The position numbers were made by a program, and so were the translations under genes. Shown here one piece after another: positions 9,312 through 32,694 of a DNA stretch of 64,000 nucleotides. How positions within the stretch are numbered: the first letter of the stretch is position 1; the number at the start of each line of letters is the position of its first letter. The stretch spans positions 13,876-77,875 of the forward strand of contig NZ_JYFN01000018.1 in the NCBI RefSeq assembly GCF_000948395.1, read 5' to 3'. Source of the stretch: Frankia torreyi (GTDB taxonomy: Bacteria; Actinomycetota; Actinomycetes; Frankiales; Frankiaceae). A model generated the notes under the pieces. It saw only the letters and a program-made list of their open reading frames with translations, was not told where the DNA came from and ran no database searches.

Positions 9312-10715
9312 GTGTCGAATCTGATCGTTACCGAGGCAAGTGTGACCCAGGCCGCACTTCACGCCAGGGCGGCGGAGCTCACCGATCGGGAGGAGGCCCG
9401 CCTGCAGAACCGGACCCGTGGTTCCGAACGGCTGCACGCGCGGGCGACGCGGTCGATGACGTCGGGGGTGCCCTCGTCCTACCAGGTCCGCGACCCGTGG
9501 CCGATCTACCTCACCCACGGGCGCGGTTCGCTCGTCTGGGATGTCGACGGCAACGAGTACGCCGACTTCCACAACGGCTTCGGCTCGATGGTCCAGGGCC
9601 ACGCCCACCCCGCGATCGTGCGGGCGGTGACCGAGCGGGTCGCCCTCGGCACCCATTTCGCCATGCCGACCGAGGACTCGGTCATCGTCAGCGAGGAGCT
9701 CGCCCGCCGGTTCGGGCTGCCGCAGTGGCGCTACGTCAACTCCGGCTCCGAGGCGACGATGGACGCCATCCGCATCGCCCGCGGGGTCACCGGCCGCGAC
9801 ACGATCGTCAAGATCTTCGGCTCGTACCACGGCCACCACGACTACGTGATGGTGTCGATCGGCACGCCCTACGACGACATCGGTCCGGCCGACAACATGA
9901 ACTCCCTCGGCTACGGCGCGGGCATCCCGCAGGCCGTCATCGACCTCACCGTGCCCGTCCCGTTCAACGACGCCGCCGCGATGGAGCGCCGGATCGAGGC
10001 CCTCGCCGCCGAGGGCCGCCTGCCCGCCTGCGTCATCATGGAGGCGGCGATGATGAACCTGGGCGTCATCCTGCCCGAGCCCGGCTACCTCGAGGCGGTC
10101 CGGGAGATCACCGCCCGGCACGGCATCATCCTGATCTTCGACGAGGTCAAGACCGGCCTGTGCGTCGCGGCCGGCGGCGCCACCGAGCGCTTCGGCGTGC
10201 GACCCGACATGATCACGCTGGCCAAGGCCCTCGGCGGCGGCCTGCCGTCGGGCGCCATCGGCGCGACCGCGGAGATCATGGAAGTCGTCGCCTCGGACAG
10301 GGTCAAGCAGGTCGGCACGTTCAACGGCAACCCGCTGACCATGGCCGCGGCCCGGGCGAGCCTGCTGGAGGTGCTCACCCCCGAGGCCTACGCGCACCTG
10401 GACCGCCTCAACGACCGCCTGATCGCCGGCTGCGACGAGATCCTGGCCCGCCACGGCATCCCCGGCTACACCGTCGGGATCAGCTCCAAGGGCTGCGTGC
10501 ACTTCACCGACGCGCCCATCCGCGACTACACGTCCTTCATGGCCCACCAGAACGCCGAACTGCCCGAGCTCGCCTGGCTCTACAACGCCAACCGCGGCGT
10601 CCTGATGGCCCCCGGCCGCGAGGAGGAGTGGACCCTGTCGGTCCAGCACACCGACGCCGACGTCGACCGCTACCTCGACAGCCTCGACCAGCTCACCCGC
10701 GACCTCACCGCCTGA
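9312..10715 (+). CDS. Class III PLP-dependent aminotransferase
   Basis: 467 residues from GTG 9312. Motifs of fold-type I, subgroup III are present: WDVDGNEYADFHNGFGSMVQGHAHP, NSGSEATMDAIRIARG, a HemL-like SYHGHHDYV, FDEVKTG (PLP-binding Asp), and the Schiff-base Lys in TLAKALGGGLPSGAIG at about residue 305. The family includes glutamate-1-semialdehyde aminomutase and amine/diamine aminotransferases. The adjacent PuuB-like oxidase and aminobutyraldehyde dehydrogenase favour an amine-catabolic role over heme synthesis. The divergent Lrp-type gene is its likely regulator. The exact substrate is not determined. Confidence 0.88.
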   Translation: MSNLIVTEASVTQAALHARAAELTDREEARLQNRTRGSERLHARATRSMTSGVPSSYQVRDPWPIYLTHGRGSLVWDVDGNEYADFHNGFGSMVQGHAHPAIVRAVTERVALGTHFAMPTEDSVIVSEELARRFGLPQWRYVNSGSEATMDAIRIARGVTGRDTIVKIFGSYHGHHDYVMVSIGTPYDDIGPADNMNSLGYGAGIPQAVIDLTVPVPFNDAAAMERRIEALAAEGRLPACVIMEAAMMNLGVILPEPGYLEAVREITARHGIILIFDEVKTGLCVAAGGATERFGVRPDMITLAKALGGGLPSGAIGATAEIMEVVASDRVKQVGTFNGNPLTMAAARASLLEVLTPEAYAHLDRLNDRLIAGCDEILARHGIPGYTVGISSKGCVHFTDAPIRDYTSFMAHQNAELPELAWLYNANRGVLMAPGREEEWTLSVQHTDADVDRYLDSLDQLTRDLTA

Positions 10716-23403: not shown

Positions 23404-24213
23404 ATGACTCCTGCGAACGCCACGCACCGGCAGCCGTCGGCGCAGTCGCGACATGTCCCACAATGGCCCCCTGTGGCCGTCGTGCCGATGCGCGCCGAGA
23501 CCGTGGTCGGGGTATCGTCCGCTCCGGAGAGACGGTCCGGTTCCGTCCGACCCGAAACCCGGAACGCGGAGTGGGCCGTTGCACAGCGTGACGGTGAGGG
23601 AGTGATCCTGGTCGACGAGACCACCGAGGAGCGGGGCGCGCGGTTCGAGCGCGACGCCCTCCCGTACCTCGACCAGCTTTATGCGGCCGCCCTGCGGATG
23701 ACCCGCAACCCGGCCGACGCGGAGGACCTCGTCCAGGAGACCTTCGTCAAGGCGTTCGCGGCCTTCCATCAGTTCCAGGAGGGCACGAACCTCAAGGCGT
23801 GGCTCTACCGGATCCTCACCAACACCTTCATCAACACCTACCGCAAGCGGCAGCGGCAGCCGTTGCAGAGCCCGACCGAGCAGGTCGAGGACTGGCAGCT
23901 CGCCGAGGCGGAGTCGCACACGTCCAGCGGCCTGAAGAGCGCGGAGACCGAGGCGCTGGAGCACCTGCCCGACAGCGACATCAAGGACGCGTTGCAGGCG
24001 TTGCCGGAGGATTTCCGGATGGCGGTGTACCTCGCCGACGTCGAGGGCTTCGCCTACAAGGAGATCGCGGAGATCATGGGAACGCCGATCGGGACCGTGA
24101 TGTCCCGGCTGCACCGTGGACGACGCGGTCTGCGCAAGTCCTTGGAGCAGTACGCGGCGGGTCGTGGGCTGGTGGGCGCCGGGTCCGCCGACGGCGAGGG
24201 TGGTGCGTCGTGA
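23404..24213 (+). CDS. sigR: ECF sigma factor SigR (thiol-oxidative stress)
   Basis: 269 residues from ATG 23404, which has GGAGG about five bases upstream. A second possible start is GTG 23602, giving a 203-residue form close to the compact SigR. Region 2 reads [42 protein letters not shown] and [19 protein letters not shown]. Region 4 reads [53 protein letters not shown]. These closely follow Streptomyces SigR, which controls the thioredoxin and disulfide stress regulon. The stop overlaps the rsrA start (GTGA), as expected for the pair. Confidence 0.93.
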
Positions 24214-25800: not shown

Positions 25801-26763
25801 TCATCGTGCCAGCCCGGGCCGGCGGGTGGTGACCGACCTGCCCGCGGGGCCCTCACCCCCGCCGTCCGTGTCGCCGTCCGTGGCGTCGTCCGCGTCCCGC
25901 CTGTTGGCCGCGTCCCGCCTGTCGGCCGCACGGTGGCCGTCGCCCCCGCCGTCGCCGACCTGCCCGACCAGGTGGACGTTCCCGGCGGACCCGGCCTCGG
26001 GGACCACCACGGCGCCCCTGCGTGAGCCGCCGTCGAGCACGTCGTTCGCGTAGGGATGAACGTCGGGCTCATCCCAACCAGCGTGGTCGTCGTGACCTGG
26101 CTGGTCGTCGTCGGCGAGGCGCTCGTCGTGGCCGAGCCGGTCGTCCTGACCGAAGTGGTCGTCGGAGCCGATCAGGCCGTCCGCACCGCCGTACCCCGCC
26201 GGCGGCGCGCCGGCCAGCGCCGCCTGGCGTCGGGCTCGCAGCGTGCGCCAGGCCCGCACCGGGGTCACGGCACCGAACAGCCCGAGCGCCGCGGCCATCG
26301 CGACGTCGCCGATGCTCACCACCGCCGGCGCCCCCGGAAAGGGCAGCGGAATGATGTCACTGAGCAGCCGCAGGCTCGTGCCGTCCCCGGCGGGGGTGTG
26401 GAAGGCCGAGGTGAGGATGTCGTCGATCGAAACGCCGGCCCGGCCCGCGCCCCACAACGACACCGGCATCTGCCCGCCGTTCGCCGTGATGACGGCGGCG
26501 TTGGCGATGATGCCGGTCACCAGCAGCCCGAGCCCGGGCAGTCGGTTGTTCATGCCGGCGAACAACGCGGCAAGCACCGCCGCCACGATCCAGGCGGGGC
26601 TGTGCAGCGCCGGGACGAGCCCGCCCACCGCCAGTACCAGGACCACCGCGGCGAACAACCACGGGCGCAGGACGTGGACGCGGGCGAGGGCGCCGAGGGT
26701 TCCGCCGCGGGCCAGGCCGACGCCCAGCCCGCACACCAGGGTCAGCACGAGAAGTACAAGCAC
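25801..26763 (-). CDS. DUF5317 family membrane protein
   Basis: 320 residues from GTG 26763. The first two thirds carry about five hydrophobic segments: LVLLVLTLVCGLGVGLARG, PWLFAAVVLVLAVGGLVPAL, WIVAAVLAALFAGMNNRLPG, LGLLVTGIIANAAVITANGG and SIGDVAMAAALGLFGAVTPV. NNRLPGLGLLVTG and NGGQMPVS are family marks of DUF5317. The last 120 residues are hydrophilic, rich in Asp, His and Gly (GQDDRLGHDERLADDDQPGHDD), and look disordered. Function unknown. Confidence 0.82.
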   Translation of the reverse strand: MLVLLVLTLVCGLGVGLARGGTLGALARVHVLRPWLFAAVVLVLAVGGLVPALHSPAWIVAAVLAALFAGMNNRLPGLGLLVTGIIANAAVITANGGQMPVSLWGAGRAGVSIDDILTSAFHTPAGDGTSLRLLSDIIPLPFPGAPAVVSIGDVAMAAALGLFGAVTPVRAWRTLRARRQAALAGAPPAGYGGADGLIGSDDHFGQDDRLGHDERLADDDQPGHDDHAGWDEPDVHPYANDVLDGGSRRGAVVVPEAGSAGNVHLVGQVGDGGGDGHRAADRRDAANRRDADDATDGDTDGGGEGPAGRSVTTRRPGLAR

Positions 26764-26923
26764 ATCCGTAGTCTGCGGGGTTACGCCGGACAGTCCCAAC
26801 ACCGGGCGGTCGAGTCGCCTCTGTGCTGCGGTGCGAACACACCTGTGGGCGCAGGGCAGTTGGTCCGGGTGACCGGGGGCACTAGGCTCTTGCCAGGTTC
26901 GACCCGCCGCTGAAGGGAGCCCG

Positions 26924-27154
26924 ATGGCCGAGGAAGTCCGCGCGGAGATGGTGGCCAACGTCTGGAAGGTCGTCGTCGGTGTGGGTGACCCGGTGGCCGC
27001 CGGTGACGCCCTCGTCATCCTCGACTCCATGAAGATGGAGATCCCGGTGATCAGCGAGGATGGCGGCACGGTCGCCAGGATCGCGGTCCAGGAGGGCGAT
27101 GTCGTCCAGGACGGCGACCTGATCGCCGTGGTCGAGCCGGTCGCCGCGGGCTGA
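26924..27154 (+). CDS. Stand-alone biotinyl/lipoyl attachment domain protein
   Basis: 76 residues from ATG 26924, with GAAGGGAG upstream. The protein is one hammerhead barrel: MVANVWKVVVGVGDPVAAGDALVILDSMKMEIPVISEDGG followed by GTVARIAVQEGDVVQDGDLIAVVEP. Lys37 in the MKM motif is the biotin site; MKM rather than DKA favours biotin over lipoate. Small proteins of this kind are known from actinobacteria and resemble the C-terminal part of acyl-CoA carboxylase carrier proteins. The bio genes lie just downstream. No carboxyltransferase is encoded nearby. Confidence 0.9.
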   Translation: MAEEVRAEMVANVWKVVVGVGDPVAAGDALVILDSMKMEIPVISEDGGTVARIAVQEGDVVQDGDLIAVVEPVAAG

Positions 27155-27363
27155 GCCCCGCCCGGTTTCATCCGGGGTTGAAGTACCCGGGCCGGTCCAT
27201 CCGGCCCGGTTCATCCCGGTTCATGCCGGCCCGTTCGGGCCGGCCCGTTCCGCCCGGCGCCCGGCGTGACCATCGGGCCCGCCGGGATCCGCGGCGAGCC
27301 GCTTGCGGGTCGGCCCCGCCGTCGGCTACGGGCTGCGTCGTGCCATGCCCTAAGCTGACGTTC

Positions 27364-27558
27364 GTGGACGCTTCGTTCTGTGACCGTTGCGGTCAGTTGG
27401 CCAGTGTGGGCAGTCATGAGGCGTGCGCGCGGGCCCGTGAGCTCGAACCCCCGCGTTACTGCCGGGTCTGCCGGCGGCGGATGGTGGTGCAGGTGACCCC
27501 CGCGGGCTGGTCGGCGCGCTGCACCGAACACGGCCTCAAGACGGCCACCAACGCCTGA
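27364..27558 (+). CDS. BsaP-like biotin synthase auxiliary protein
   Basis: 64 residues from GTG 27364. It carries CDRCGQLASVGSHEAC at the N-terminus and RYCRVCRRRMVVQVTPAGWSARCTEHG at the C-terminus, giving two CxxC pairs and a further Cys-x-x-His. The second segment resembles the small protein encoded next to bioB in mycobacteria, described as an Fe-S auxiliary protein that supports biotin synthase. Here it converges with bioB, separated by 85 bases. The assignment rests on motif and position. Confidence 0.75.
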   Translation: MDASFCDRCGQLASVGSHEACARARELEPPRYCRVCRRRMVVQVTPAGWSARCTEHGLKTATNA

Positions 27559-27643
27559 TTCCGCCCCGCCCGCCCCCCGCCAGCCCGCCCCCGGCCAGGG
27601 CCCGCGCCGCGCGCGAGCCGGCCGGCCGGAGACGGGCGCAGTC

Positions 27644-28711
27644 CTACAGCGTGGCCTGCAGCGACTTGATCGGCATGCTCAGGTCGGCGAGCATCTTCAG
27701 ATCCGACTCGGCCGGCCGGCCCAGCGTCGTCAGGTAGTTGCCGACGATCACGGCGTTGATGCCGCCGAGCATCCCCTGCGCCTCCAGATCGCCCAGGGTG
27801 ATCTCCCGGCCGCCCGAGTAGCGAAGGATCGTCCGGGGCAGAGCCAGCCGGAACGCGGCGATGGCGCGCAGCGCGTCGCGCGGCTGCACCGGCGGGTAGT
27901 CGCCGAAGGGGGTACCCGGCCGCGGGTTGAGGAAGTTCAGCGGCACCTCGTCGGGCTCCAGCACGGCGAGCTGGGCGGCGAGCTCGGCCCGCTGCTCCAG
28001 CGACTCCCCGACCCCCAGGATCGCGCCGCAGCACAGTTCCATGCCGGCCGCGCGCACCATCTCGCAGGTCTCCCAGCGCTCCTCCCAGCTATGGGTGGTG
28101 ACGACCTTGGGGAAGTGCGAGCGGGACGTCTCGAGATTGTGGTTGTAGCGGTGCACACCGATCGCGGTGAGCTCGTCGACCTGTTCCTGGGTCAGCATGC
28201 CCAGCGAGCAGGCGACATTGATCTCGACGGCCGCGCGGATGGCCGCGACCCCCTCGCGGACCTGGGACATGAGCCGGGCGTCGGGTCCGCGAACGGCCGC
28301 GACGATGCAGAACTCGGTGGCGCCGGTGGCCGCGGTCTGGCGGGCCGCCTCGACCAGCGAGGGCACGTCGAGCCACGCCGAGCGCACCGGCGAGTCGAAC
28401 TTGCCCGACTGCGAGCAGAAGTGGCAGTCCTCCGGGCAGCCGCCCGTCTTCAGGCTGATGATGCCCTCGACCTCGACCTCCGGCCCGCACCAGCGCATCC
28501 GGACCTCGTGGGCGAGCGCGAGGGCGTCGCCCAGGTACTCGTCGGGCAGCCGCAGGACGGCGAGCACGCCAGCCTCGTCGAGCCCCCGCCCGGCCTCGAG
28601 CACCTCACGCCGGGCGTGGGCAAGCAGAGCGGCCGGGTCCTGCCCGGCGGCGGCCGGCGCCGGCGGTGGCACCGTCGCCGGGGCGGTGTGCGCGGTCACG
28701 GGTGCGGTCAC
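27644..28711 (-). CDS. bioB: Biotin synthase BioB
   Basis: 355 residues from ATG 28711, with an Ala/Pro-rich leader of about 25 residues before the core. The radical-SAM cluster motif CPEDCHFC is at Cys92, Cys96 and Cys99. [32 protein letters not shown] and [14 protein letters not shown] provide the remaining SAM, [2Fe-2S] and dethiobiotin contacts of the family. It inserts sulfur into dethiobiotin. bioF, bioD and bioB all read leftward, but a 437-base gap before bioB suggests it also has its own promoter. Confidence 0.96.
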
Positions 28712-29148
28712 GGGGGCCTCCAGGCGGGACGTCGGCAGAGGAGATGCGCTCGGTGGTGGTGGGTCGGCTCGTCGTCGGGTGGGCTGATCGAACCGGTGTC
28801 TCGGTTCGGCTTGTCCGGTTTGCTAGTTGTATTGGGATTTGTCGATATTCGCGGGTGGGCTTGTCGTCGGATCGGTCGGAGCGCGCCCTCCATTGTCGAA
28901 CCCGCGCCCGTTGCGCCGCCCGGTTTTCCCGCGCGACGTCGGGCACGTTCGTCACCCGCGTCCGTCCTCCGTGCATCCAGCGGGCCGGCAGTCGGCAGCC
29001 GCCGCCGGCCTCCGCCGGCCATCGGCTCCGCCAGCCATCGGCTCCGCCAGCCATCGGCTCCGTCGCCGCCTACCGCCTCCTACGCTCCCTTGCCTTTCTA
29101 CAGGGACAATGCGGACGGGTAGGCCTGTGGAAACGCAAGGGAATCGCC
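28712..29148. other. 437-base intergenic region between bioD and bioB, with repeats and a hairpin
   Basis: No gene is supported. A less GC-rich stretch at 28810-28860 may hold the bioB promoter on the minus strand. Three tandem copies of gccatcggctccgcca occur at about 29020-29060. A large hairpin follows at 29087-29141, described separately. Confidence 0.5.
29087..29141 (-). terminator. Large hairpin just after bioD
   Basis: CCCTTGC at 29087-29093 pairs with GCAAGGG at 29135-29141, and TTTCTACAGG at 29095-29104 pairs with CCTGTGGAAA at 29124-29133 with one mismatch. It begins eight bases past the bioD stop. There is no T run, so it may act as a stem barrier or attenuation structure rather than a classic terminator. 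Confidence 0.45.
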
Positions 29149-29865
29149 CTATAGGGGGTGGCGTGCACGGAACTGCCGTGCACGGAAGGTACCGCCGAGG
29201 GCGGGTTCGAGTGACTGCCGGGCCGTCGCCAGGAACTCGGGCCGGCTCAGCAGGGCGGCGCCCGCCGGCAGGGCCCCGGCCAGCGGTCGGCCGGCCAGGT
29301 CGGTCAGGTCGGTCAGGTTGCTGCGGCAGGCCAGGTCCGGCTCGCGCGGCCAGGATCCGATGACGACGCCGGCGAGGTCGAGGCCGCGGTGGGCCAGCGC
29401 CTCCAGGGTCAGCGCGGTGGCGTTCAGCGCGCCGAGTCCCGCCGCCGTCACGACGAGCACCGGCGCCGCGAGCAGCCGGGCGAGATCGGCCAGGGTCGCG
29501 CCGTTGTCGTCGTAGCGCACCAGCAGACCGCCGGCCCCCTCGACGAGGACGAGGTCGTGGTCGGTGGCGAGCTTGCCGATCCGGGCCGCCACGTCGCCGA
29601 GGTCGACGGCGGGTCGTCCGGCCCGGCGGGCGGCGGCCGCCGGCGCGAGCGGGTCGGGGTAACGGGCCAGCTCGTGGACGTCGCGGATGCCCGCGAGCCC
29701 GGCGACCAGATCGACGTCTCCCAGCTCGTCGGGCCGGACCCCGGTCTGCGCCGGCTTGACCACCGCGACGGCGTGGCCGCGGTCGTGGGCGAGCGCGGCC
29801 AGCGCCGCGGTCACCACCGTCTTGCCGACCTCGGTGCCGGTACCGGTGATCACCAGCAGCGTCAC
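29149..29865 (-). CDS. bioD: Dethiobiotin synthetase BioD
   Basis: 238 residues from GTG 29865, which overlaps the bioF stop (GTGA), showing translational coupling. The P-loop is VITGTGTEVGKTVVTAALAAL, followed by VKPAQTGVRPDELGDVDLV, LVEGAGGLLVRYDDNGATLADLA and VVTAAGLGALNATALTLEAL. These are the ATP, CO2 and diaminopelargonate binding motifs of BioD. The C-terminus (about 25 residues, ending RARQFRARHPL) is basic and unusual. It makes dethiobiotin from diaminopelargonic acid. Confidence 0.95.
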   Translation of the reverse strand: MTLLVITGTGTEVGKTVVTAALAALAHDRGHAVAVVKPAQTGVRPDELGDVDLVAGLAGIRDVHELARYPDPLAPAAAARRAGRPAVDLGDVAARIGKLATDHDLVLVEGAGGLLVRYDDNGATLADLARLLAAPVLVVTAAGLGALNATALTLEALAHRGLDLAGVVIGSWPREPDLACRSNLTDLTDLAGRPLAGALPAGAALLSRPEFLATARQSLEPALGGTFRARQFRARHPL

Positions 29866-31133
29866 CGGGCGGGCACCTCGGCGGCGAGGACCCCGGCGGC
29901 GGCGAACGCCTCGGTCGCGAGTGTCAGGTCGGCGTCGCTGAGATCGGCGCGGGCGGCCAGCCGCAGCCGGCTCGTGCCCGCGGGCACCGTCGGCGGCCGG
30001 AAGCAGCCGACCGCCACCCCGTGCGCCAGGCAGGTCGCCGCCGCGGCCACCGCCGGCTCCGGCTCGCCGACGAGGACCGAGACGACCGCGCCGGCCGGGC
30101 GCGGCGCCCCGGTGAGCGCGGCGAGCTCGCCGGCGCGGCGCCGGACCGCGGCGGGCAGCTCCGGATGGGCCCGCAGGTGCGTCAGCGCCGCCAGCGCCCC
30201 GCCGACGCTCGCCGGGGCGAGGCCGGTGTCGAAGATGAAGGCGCGGGCCGTGTCGATGAGGTGCTCGCGGACGGCCGCCGTGCCGAGGACCGCGCCGCCC
30301 TGGCCGCCGAGTGCCTTCGACAGGGTGACCGTGGCCACCACGTCCGGCTGGCCGGCGAGCCCGGCGGCGGCCAGCGCGCCGCGTCCGGCCGGGCCGACCA
30401 CGCCGAGCCCGTGCGCCTCGTCGACGACGAGAACCGCCCCGTGGGCGCGGGCCGTGGCGTGCAGCTCGGCGAGGGGAGCGGCGTCGCCGTCGGCGGAGAA
30501 CACCGACTCGGTCACCACGAGCGCGCGGCGCCAGCCGCCGGCGGCGAGGGCGGCGGTCACGGCGGCGACGTCGCCGTGCGGAGTGATGGCCACCCGCGCC
30601 CGGGACAGCCGGCAGGCGTCCACGATCGAGGCATGGTTGAGCGCGTCGGAGACGATCAGGTCGCCGGGGCCGGCCAGCCCGGTCAGGCAGCCCAGGTTCG
30701 CCGTGTAGCCGGAGGAGAAGACCAGCGCCCCGGCGAAGCCCACGTGGTCGGCGAGCGCCGCCTCCAGCTCGCCGTGCAGGGCGGTCGTTCCGGTCACCAG
30801 CCGGCTGCCGGTGGATCCCGTGCCCCACTCCCGCAGGGCGCGCGCCGCCCCCTCGACGATCGCGGGATGGCGGCCGAGGCCGAGGTAGTCGTTGCTGGCG
30901 AGGTCGACGCGAACCTGGGAACCATCCGCGGCGGGCGTCAGGGTGCGCGGGCGCAGCCGGCGGCGCAGGCCAGCCACCTCGCGGCTCCAGGCATGATCGG
31001 CAAGCCAGGCCAGCGGATCGGCCGCGGGCGGGTCGCCGGTGGGCTCGGTGGTGGTCTTCGCTACGCTTGCGGCGGTTTGTGGCTCCGTGCGCGTACCGGG
31101 AACCACGGCCGCGGCGGCGTTGTCGACGGTCAC
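29862..31133 (-). CDS. bioF: 8-amino-7-oxononanoate synthase BioF
   Basis: 423 residues from GTG 31133. It is an alpha-oxoamine synthase: SNDYLGLGRHPAIVEGA, GTGSTGSRLVTGTTALHGELE, VFSSGYTANLGCLTGL, DALNHASIVDACRLSRA, VVDEAHGLGVVGPAGRG and the PLP-Lys motif TLSKALGGQGGAVLG. It condenses pimeloyl thioester with alanine. bioF leads the coupled bioF-bioD pair. No bioA, bioC or bioH gene is in the window, so the transaminase step must be encoded elsewhere. It diverges from pdtaS with 82 bases between starts. Confidence 0.95.
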   Translation of the reverse strand: MTVDNAAAAVVPGTRTEPQTAASVAKTTTEPTGDPPAADPLAWLADHAWSREVAGLRRRLRPRTLTPAADGSQVRVDLASNDYLGLGRHPAIVEGAARALREWGTGSTGSRLVTGTTALHGELEAALADHVGFAGALVFSSGYTANLGCLTGLAGPGDLIVSDALNHASIVDACRLSRARVAITPHGDVAAVTAALAAGGWRRALVVTESVFSADGDAAPLAELHATARAHGAVLVVDEAHGLGVVGPAGRGALAAAGLAGQPDVVATVTLSKALGGQGGAVLGTAAVREHLIDTARAFIFDTGLAPASVGGALAALTHLRAHPELPAAVRRRAGELAALTGAPRPAGAVVSVLVGEPEPAVAAAATCLAHGVAVGCFRPPTVPAGTSRLRLAARADLSDADLTLATEAFAAAGVLAAEVPAR

Positions 31134-31215
31134 GACGGCGAGCGTACGGGCCCGGAGGGTCCCGCGGGGGTGCCCGCCAGCTCGCAGCCCCGGTCCGTCT
31201 GGCAGTCTGCGACCC

Positions 31216-32694
31216 GTGGGAACCCTCGCCGACATGCTGCGCGCGAGCACGGATCTCAGCGACGACGACATCGACCACCTGCACGCGCTCGTCGCGGACT
31301 GGGCTCTGCTCGCCGACCTCTCCTTCGCTGACCTGCTGCTCCTCGTGCCCGTCCGTTCCGGTTCGGGTTCGGGCCGGGGCCATACCAGCGGGACGGAGTT
31401 TCTCGTCGTGGCCCAGGTCCGACCCACGACCGGCCCGACCGCCTACCACAACGACGAGGTCGGCAGCGTCGTCATCAACCGGTGGGTGGTCCAGAACGCC
31501 TGGCGGGAGCACCGCATCGCCCGGGAGGGCGAGCCCGAGTGGGACGGCGGGGTGCCGGTGCGGACGGAGGCGATCCCGGTCCGCCACGGCGACGAGGTGA
31601 TTGCCGTGCTCGCCCGCGACACCAACCTGGTCAATCCCCGCACCCCCAGCGATCTGGAGTCCTCCTACCTGCAGGGCGCCAACAACCTGGCCCTGATGAT
31701 CGCCGAGGGTGCCTTTCCGTTCCGCGGGAGCTCGGCCGAGCTGCCGGAGTCACCCCGGGTCGGCGACGGGATGATGCGGCTCGACGGTGCTGGCAAGGTC
31801 ATCTTCGCCAGCCCGAACGCGCTGTCGGCGTACCGCCGCCTCGGCTACACCGGCAACGTCACCGGGGAGGACCTGCGCACGGTGCACCGGGCGCTGAACC
31901 TGCCCGCGACCACGCCCGCCGTCTGGCATGCGATCGGCCGGCGCCGGCCGGTGGAGGTCGAGGCCGGGGTCGGCAGCACGGTGGTGATGTTGCGGGCGAT
32001 CCCGCTGTTCCCCGGGTCCACCCGGGAGGTGCTCGTCCTCGTCCGGGACGTCTCGGATCTGCGTCGGCGGGAGGCGCTGCTGCTGAGCAAGGACGCCACC
32101 ATCCGTGAGATCCATCACAGGGTCAAGAACAATCTTCAGACGGTGGCCGCGCTGCTGCGGCTGCAGATGCGTCGGACCAAGGTCGACGAGGCACGATCGG
32201 CCCTGCGGGAGTCGGTGCGCCGGGTGACCTCGATCGCGGTTGTGCACGAGACGCTCTCGCAGAGCCTGGGCGAGAGCGTGCCGTTCGACGAGATCGCCGA
32301 CCAGATCACGTCGGTGACCGTCGACCTGGCGTCCACCGGTGCGCGGGCGAACACCCGCAGGTCGGGTTCCTTCGGGCGGCTGCCCGGTGAACTCGCCACG
32401 CCGCTGGCCCTTGTGCTTTCAGAGCTTCTGCAGAATGCTGTAGAACATGCGTTCGATGGCTCGGCGGGTTCGATCGAGATCCGCGTGCAGCGCCTGGTGG
32501 ACCGGCTGGACGTCGTCGTCGCCGACGACGGGGCCGGCCTGCCGGAGGACTTCCAGCTCGAGCACTCGCCCCGGCTGGGGCTGCAGATCGTCCGTCAGCT
32601 CGTGCTCGGTGAGATGCACGGCACCATCCGGCTGCAGGCCGGTCCGGAGCGCGGCACCGAGGCGCTGCTGTCCATCCCACTTTCTGAAAGTTGA
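31216..32694 (+). CDS. pdtaS: PdtaS-type sensor histidine kinase
   Basis: 492 residues from GTG 31216. An N-terminal GAF-like sensor (LADMLRASTDLSDDDIDHLHALVADWALLADLSFADLLLL, GPTAYHNDEVGSVV) is followed by a PAS-like region (MMRLDGAGKVIFASPNALSAYRRLGYTG), a HisKA_2 dimer helix with the phospho-acceptor His in ATIREIHHRVKNNLQTVAALLRLQ (near residue 300), and an HATPase domain with ELLQNAVEHAFDG and VVADDGAGLP. There are no membrane segments, so it is cytosolic. In mycobacteria PdtaS phosphorylates the antiterminator PdtaR; no pdtaR is seen here. Confidence 0.93.
   Translation: MGTLADMLRASTDLSDDDIDHLHALVADWALLADLSFADLLLLVPVRSGSGSGRGHTSGTEFLVVAQVRPTTGPTAYHNDEVGSVVINRWVVQNAWREHRIAREGEPEWDGGVPVRTEAIPVRHGDEVIAVLARDTNLVNPRTPSDLESSYLQGANNLALMIAEGAFPFRGSSAELPESPRVGDGMMRLDGAGKVIFASPNALSAYRRLGYTGNVTGEDLRTVHRALNLPATTPAVWHAIGRRRPVEVEAGVGSTVVMLRAIPLFPGSTREVLVLVRDVSDLRRREALLLSKDATIREIHHRVKNNLQTVAALLRLQMRRTKVDEARSALRESVRRVTSIAVVHETLSQSLGESVPFDEIADQITSVTVDLASTGARANTRRSGSFGRLPGELATPLALVLSELLQNAVEHAFDGSAGSIEIRVQRLVDRLDVVVADDGAGLPEDFQLEHSPRLGLQIVRQLVLGEMHGTIRLQAGPERGTEALLSIPLSES

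Follow-up and report, generated by a model that had tools for sequence, protein, structure and literature searches.

What is a protein of 64 residues, bearing two pairs of closely spaced cysteines, doing opposite the biotin synthase gene of Frankia torreyi, and does the gene for a biotin-accepting protein on its other side have any part in it? Within the 64,000-nucleotide stretch that we analysed (the window), the small gene (27364..27558 including the stop codon, forward strand) and bioB (27644..28711, reverse strand) do converge, as the original prediction had it, and their 3' ends lie 85 nt apart. Mycobacterial BioB is reported to need a biotin synthase auxiliary protein, BsaP, and how BsaP helps the synthase is described in the same paper, cited in turn by PMC12915131 and PMC13336041, as an open question (PMC11099021). 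That paper is also the only source of BsaP biochemistry that we found in the open-licence literature, and it concerns mycobacterial proteins. Our reading, to which we give a probability of roughly 70%, is that the Frankia protein is a BsaP orthologue which completes or rebuilds a cluster of BioB, carries a structural knuckle at its N-terminus, and is made from a leaderless promoter of its own.

The small protein and the BsaP family

The proposed resemblance to the biotin synthase helper is borne out by NF052237, the BsaP equivalog, which the product matches with a score of 90.4 bits (cut-off 39), and which is the sole NCBIfam model matched at E-values up to 1. The ORF begins with GTG and appears to be coding, because differences between it and bsaP at 15 other Frankia and Parafrankia loci are concentrated in third codon positions (e.g. 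5/2/19, 4/3/25 and 9/6/25 over the three positions). The two CxxC pairs are indeed there; together with H18-xx-C21 and C53-xx-H56 they make up two candidate four-ligand sets, C6-xx-C9 ... H18-xx-C21 (27379..27426, forward strand) and C33-xx-C36 ... C53-xx-H56 (27460..27531, forward strand). Judged by its family model, then, the protein is an orthologue of BsaP and an ordinary member of the family, which also includes the mycobacterial proteins (Rv1590 / Msmeg3195).

The competing possibility named alongside the original prediction, an unrelated zinc ribbon that merely adjoins bioB, can draw on the only Pfam match, to Double zinc ribbon, and on weak fold matches with a best Z of 2.6. However, the Pfam match falls below its cut-off (E 0.31, 11.7 bits vs 27.3), and the NF052237 score rules such a protein out at the sequence level; R31, R38, P46 and W49 are, moreover, invariant alongside the cysteines in 208/208 distinct BsaPs, and BsaP co-occurs with BioBs that have Ala at position 128. 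We consider this alternative extremely unlikely.

Two candidate ligand sets, one of them mostly missing from one family

The ligand survey covered 208 distinct proteins from 223 loci, and the sample is uneven: 80 named loci are the best matches to Frankia-like sequences (the best 80 of at least 550 relatives), and BsaPs of genome family f4 were read from part of the f4 genomes that have one (BsaP is present in 111/121 of one f4 set, plus others). Family f4 appears to hold mycobacteria, going by genome G037: over 185 residues its SigH is almost the same as that of 5zx2, and its BioD has its best match in 3fgn; we take both of these to be M. tuberculosis proteins.

The C-terminal set, CxxC-x16-CxxH, is close to universal, with C33, C36 and C53 in 208/208 and H56 in 207/208; in the BsaP of Yinghuangia seranimata (L095, 10001-10177) Asp replaces this His. 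The three cysteines are spaced like Cys44, Cys47 and Cys64 of the M. tuberculosis (Mtb) protein, and it is three Cys of BsaP that PMC11099021 names; none of the words 'zinc', 'His', 'Frankia' and 'N-terminal' occurs in its main text as a whole word. The nearly invariant His is a candidate fourth ligand at the C-terminal site. The N-terminal CxxC..HxxC set has a different distribution: it is complete in 121/208 proteins and missing from 86, of which 81 have no Cys just before the core and 5 have one, and the protein from L261 has three Cys and a displaced His. Outside f4 the set is complete in 118/119 distinct BsaPs; inside f4 it is complete in 3/89 (from G128, G134 and G159), so that the Frankia protein differs in this respect from 86 of the 89. 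It differs from the Mtb protein also at the position equated with Mtb Arg66, where it has Glu55. Arg is found there in 113/208 and Glu in 83/208, and a positive patch at this position is therefore not general. Elsewhere in the survey, one f4 genome (G217) holds two BsaP copies over the cut-off (L256, L257), both without the N-terminal ligands, and two divergent BsaPs (L225 and L229, in G119 and G228) have the core APRIC or VPRIC, no N-terminal motif, and an NF052237 match limited to model positions 19-53 or 20-53.

AlphaFold2 models, which hold no metals, give a two-site BsaP (43 sequences) with a pLDDT of 94.2, a pTM of 0.78, a helix at 18-26 (in model numbering, that of the protein minus one) and three strands, and an f4 BsaP (60 aa) with a mean pLDDT of 91.3, similar C-terminal strands and a shorter helix at 15-18. 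Foldseek returned 0 solved structures at E <= 0.001 and 273 at E <= 10, while VIA-align placed ZPR1 (Z 2.6) and 7tol (2.2) at the head of nine rows, all tied and weak; a sequence search against solved structures gave a single chance match (E 0.62). The predicted fold is, at most, weakly like that of zinc-ribbon proteins, and neither structural comparison excludes any fold family. mitoNEET and IscR (3Cys-1His [2Fe-2S]) and the rubredoxins each have a site similar in the number and type of its ligands, but none gave a convincing sequence or fold match to BsaP in our searches.

The partner biotin synthase

BsaP-dependent BioBs are described as having Ala in place of E. coli Cys128, and Glu, Glu, Arg and Glu in place of Ser43, Ser218, Tyr149 and Arg95 (PMC11099021). 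The window BioB (353.7 bits to TIGR00433, cut-off 225) has exactly these residues. When 187 distinct bsaP-linked BioBs (segments of at least 260 aa) were aligned to the E. coli segment of 1R30, position 128 was Ala in 184 and Ser in 3, and E43, E95, R149 and E218 were present in 187/187. The radical-SAM cysteines C53, C57 and C60 are likewise kept in 187/187, as in the E. coli type I enzyme; among the auxiliary-cluster ligands of that enzyme (C97, C128, C188 and R260), the window BioB keeps three, and has Ala for C128. Members of the bsaP-linked class also carry extra cysteines, at position 129 in 164/187 and at position 189 in 182/187. Among solved structures the window BioB is closest to 8vdw (245 bits), which we take to be a type II biotin synthase, followed by 1r30 (187 bits).

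All eight comparison BioBs have C128 instead, with N, R, A and S at positions 43, 95, 149 and 218. Two of these are the only full BioBs of genomes without BsaP (G043 and G051); the other six are second copies (L076, L077, L078, L079, L080 and L081) in five Frankia genomes and one Parafrankia genome (G001, G004, G008, G009, G011 and G028), 36-39% identical to the window BioB. From their residues these second copies look to be BsaP-independent. In a separate case, an apparent BioB-BsaP fusion in L191 was rejected: the BioB end is out of frame, hence the single open frame reflects a frameshift near the end of bioB, through sequencing error or a broken gene.

The same association holds between genomes. 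BsaP occurs in 45 of the 58 genomes, 44 of which have BioB over the cut-off; in the remaining one (G049) BioB is present only as a contig-end fragment of 96 bits. BsaP occurs with the Cys128-less class in the 43 of these genomes for which we read the BioB class (G015 and G049 being left out), and this includes the source genome, which has a single bioB over the cut-off. Only 3 of the 13 genomes without BsaP have BioB over the cut-off, of the C128 class in G043 and G051 and of the A128 class in G041; G012, of the Frankia group, has neither protein over the cut-off. The exception, G041, shows no BsaP in the genome and no BsaP motif in the 10 kb around its bioB (L084), and may be a genuine departure or an assembly gap (96% complete, 970 contigs). 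We infer from this pattern that the Frankia BioB depends on BsaP.

Gene order and a putative promoter

In the window, bioB is preceded on the same strand by bioD (29149..29868, start approximate; TIGR00347, 120.5 bits, cut-off 83.3), a position repeated in relatives, and by bioF (29869..31427, reverse strand). The bioF ORF has TIGR00858 as its best model, below the cut-off (379.9 bits over residues 168-508, cut-off 426.45), and its true start probably lies downstream of the ORF start. A single bioA over the cut-off stands on a different contig; a weak BioA-family aminotransferase match at 9492-10439 of the window (forward strand; 97.6 bits vs a cut-off of 405) is not the BioA of this genome.

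A comparison of gene order in other Frankia, suggested at the outset, shows that the facing arrangement is not strain-specific. The carrier gene and bsaP point the same way and bioB faces them in 12/12 Frankia loci, window included, and in 6/6 Parafrankia loci (18/18 together), with bioD and bioF behind bioB wherever the contig reaches. At 13 loci of groups g3, g5 and g6 (g6 being Pseudofrankia) bsaP instead follows bioB and converges with the carrier gene; at L048 (g7) bioB-bsaP is present but no carrier was found, and L045 (g4) shows neither gene. Among the best 80 of at least 550 relatives, Planobispora, Acrocarpospora, Streptosporangium, Planomonospora and Thermocatellispora have carrier and bsaP in the same direction, with bioB, wherever the stretch includes it, convergent 4-7 kb from bsaP; in most Actinomadura and their kin, bsaP lies upstream of bioD-bioB; and in Pseudonocardia and Jatrophihabitans bsaP comes directly after bioB. 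Of the 208 distinct proteins, 137 are encoded immediately downstream of bioB, 14 far downstream, 24 convergently and 18 upstream, and for 15 bioB is off the stretch. 'Most' bsaP genes are stated to be downstream of bioB, and position to be without effect in M. smegmatis (PMC11099021); the window departs from the usual placement, found in mycobacteria but not required of a BsaP. In G040 (L068, L085) bsaP and the carrier gene face each other far from any bioB, and a BsaP-class bioB, bioD and bioF lie on another contig.

Did the convergent arrangement of Frankia and Parafrankia arise through one inversion in place, or through two independent inversions or the substitution of a foreign bsaP? For the latter, the BioB tree joins Parafrankia, weakly (SH-aLRT 82, not starred), with Pseudofrankia, where bsaP comes after bioB. 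BsaP identity to the window protein is also 76-88% in Parafrankia and 62-69% in Pseudofrankia, whereas BioB identities are alike (82-84% and 81-84%). Against it, the two genera share the slot, the neighbours and an upstream box, and a protein of 64 residues is too short to settle a tree. We lean, if only a little, towards a single inversion, and hold the more complicated history to be a real possibility.

The box in question, TAAGCT (27351..27356, forward strand), lies 7 nt 5' of the bsaP start codon. A TANNNT box 6-8 nt 5' of the start is present in 18/18 convergent Frankia and Parafrankia bsaP genes, which are close relatives and not 18 independent cases, although the surrounding sequence differs between the two genera. 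At the same spacing, such a box precedes 15 of 3206 [AG]TG on both window strands, and the same test at 22 other loci found it before some possible start in 7. This conserved box suggests that bsaP of Frankia and Parafrankia is transcribed leaderless from its own promoter; a consensus scan of 26700-29200 for promoters and terminators found nothing, and no sigma-70-type promoter. Could the same be true wherever bsaP is separated from bioB? The box accompanies 38/56 separated bsaP genes vs 8/137 directly downstream of bioB, and 6/15 with bioB off the stretch, but an independent-pairs test on the BioB tree could draw on just 3 pairs from supported branches and gave a median sign-test p of 1. With so few pairs and no significance, we dropped the general rule that a separated bsaP carries its own promoter.

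The biotinyl carrier

Just upstream of bsaP, a biotin-accepting protein had been predicted, and the gene there (26924..27154, forward strand) encodes a protein of 76 aa that contains VILDSMKMEIPV, bears an SMKM biotin-acceptor motif, and scores 119.3 bits to NF004547 (cut-off 75) and 58.1 bits to Pfam Biotin_lipoyl (cut-off 22.1). The equivalog match and the MKM biotinylation motif are both shared with TB7.3 (Rv3221c), called a putative BCCP in PMC3048393, and we predict from them that this stand-alone, TB7.3-like carrier is biotinylated.

It was further proposed that biotin synthesis, its helper and a consumer of biotin are grouped here. The adjacency is real, but the functional grouping does not follow: the carrier gene keeps its neighbourhood where biotin genes are absent. 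That neighbourhood, followed in relatives by tblastn, is represented in the window on the left by a SigH/SigR-like sigma factor gene (23623..24213, forward strand; TIGR02947 SigH_actino, 350 bits, cut-off 251.55) and on the right by a histidine kinase gene (31162..32694, forward strand), tracked by tblastn and matched by histidine-kinase models only below their cut-offs, which is presumably a PdtaS, a name taken from the mycobacterial locus. We examined the carrier gene in ten genomes in which it lies away from bsaP or no bsaP was found, some on short stretches. The G037 copy has rsrA on one side and pdtaS on the other, and no biotin gene was found in 16 kb; in Frankia, unlike this mycobacterium, bsaP and bioB-D-F lie between the carrier and the pdtaS-like gene. 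Several of sigH, rsrA, DUF5317, pdtaS and whiB flank it in G035, G044, G047, G053 and G057, only whiB in G043 and only DUF5317 in G048, and none of these was found in G018 and G054. Because the carrier keeps its sigH-rsrA or pdtaS-whiB neighbours without biotin genes, it looks to be the resident of the locus and the biotin genes the visitors.

How much room is left for a single functional unit of biotin synthesis, BsaP and the carrier, in which the carrier would be either a consumer under shared regulation or a partner of BsaP? At least 59/208 distinct BsaP loci have the carrier no more than 2.5 kb from bsaP (many stretches reaching only 1.5-1.8 kb), and it stays near bsaP despite an orientation that varies between lineages, in G040 even with bioB on the other contig. 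Yet sigH-rsrA or pdtaS-whiB adjoin the carrier, with no biotin gene in about 16 kb, in six genomes (G035, G037, G044, G047, G053 and G057), four of which (G044, G047, G053 and G057) have the carrier and no BioB over the cut-off, and no carrier was found by bsaP at the Pseudonocardia and Jatrophihabitans loci. The gene link between carrier and biotin genes is therefore real and probably not functional, and a single unit seems to us very unlikely.

Mechanism and alternatives

The window BioB lacks one Cys ligand, the counterpart of E. coli Cys128, of its sulfur-donating auxiliary cluster; on our preferred reading, BsaP would dock by the Cys128-less pocket and compensate for that loss. The CxxC-x16-CxxH set, with its three Cys and one His, would bind a labile centre, either iron or iron-sulfur, which could complete or rebuild the cluster that is consumed as sulfur enters dethiobiotin. 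The role of the N-terminal CxxC..HxxC would be structural, as a metal knuckle most probably for zinc, lost in most of f4 and kept in most BsaPs read. With bsaP reversed in its slot between bioB and the carrier gene in Frankia and Parafrankia, a probable leaderless promoter of its own would have BsaP made separately from the bioF-bioD-bioB transcript.

A rubredoxin-like role, with a single iron at the C-terminal site and electrons passed to BioB without any cluster building, is a rival to this mechanism. In its favour, the predicted fold weakly resembles residues 2-44 of the tetraether lipid synthase 7tol (Z 2.2, 39 residues aligned); we take that enzyme to be a radical-SAM protein and this segment to be rubredoxin-like. 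Rv1590 is also described as rubredoxin-like, iron-binding and redox-active in a thesis that PMC11099021 cites. Still, E. coli BioB is functional in an M. smegmatis strain without bioB and bsaP (PMC11099021), so the general electron supply there is intact, and BsaP tracks the loss of an auxiliary-cluster ligand while the radical-SAM cysteines are kept throughout; the fold Z values, for their part, are all tied and low. An electron donor is, on balance, unlikely, and we favour the completion or rebuilding of the cluster.

We could also speculate, against the odds, that BsaP was originally a two-metal protein whose N-terminal site helps to rebuild the cluster sacrificed by BioB, perhaps by relaying iron or sulfur and so allowing many turnovers, that the mycobacterial form is a derived, one-site one, and that the BsaP-linked BioBs represent a third mechanistic type, completed in trans. 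Were this so, the derived form might be relevant to the low activity seen in vitro, where the enzyme did not reach steady-state turnover (PMC11099021).

The BsaP family itself is already known; what appears new at the level of sequence is that the protein has a two-site anatomy, that one family has largely lost it and that the gene order is reversed, none of which we found in print among open-licence papers, although the supplementary alignment of PMC11099021 may show the first. Mycobacterial biotin synthesis is a drug-target lead, and the BsaPs studied so far come from the very family in which most members read are without a putative metal-binding motif that is kept by almost all those read elsewhere. 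Frankia supplies a two-site BsaP, and since a BsaP-class BioB and one that keeps C128 occur together in five Frankia genomes, dependence on BsaP could be tested side by side. A BioB fragment of 164 bits in G003 may be another such second copy.
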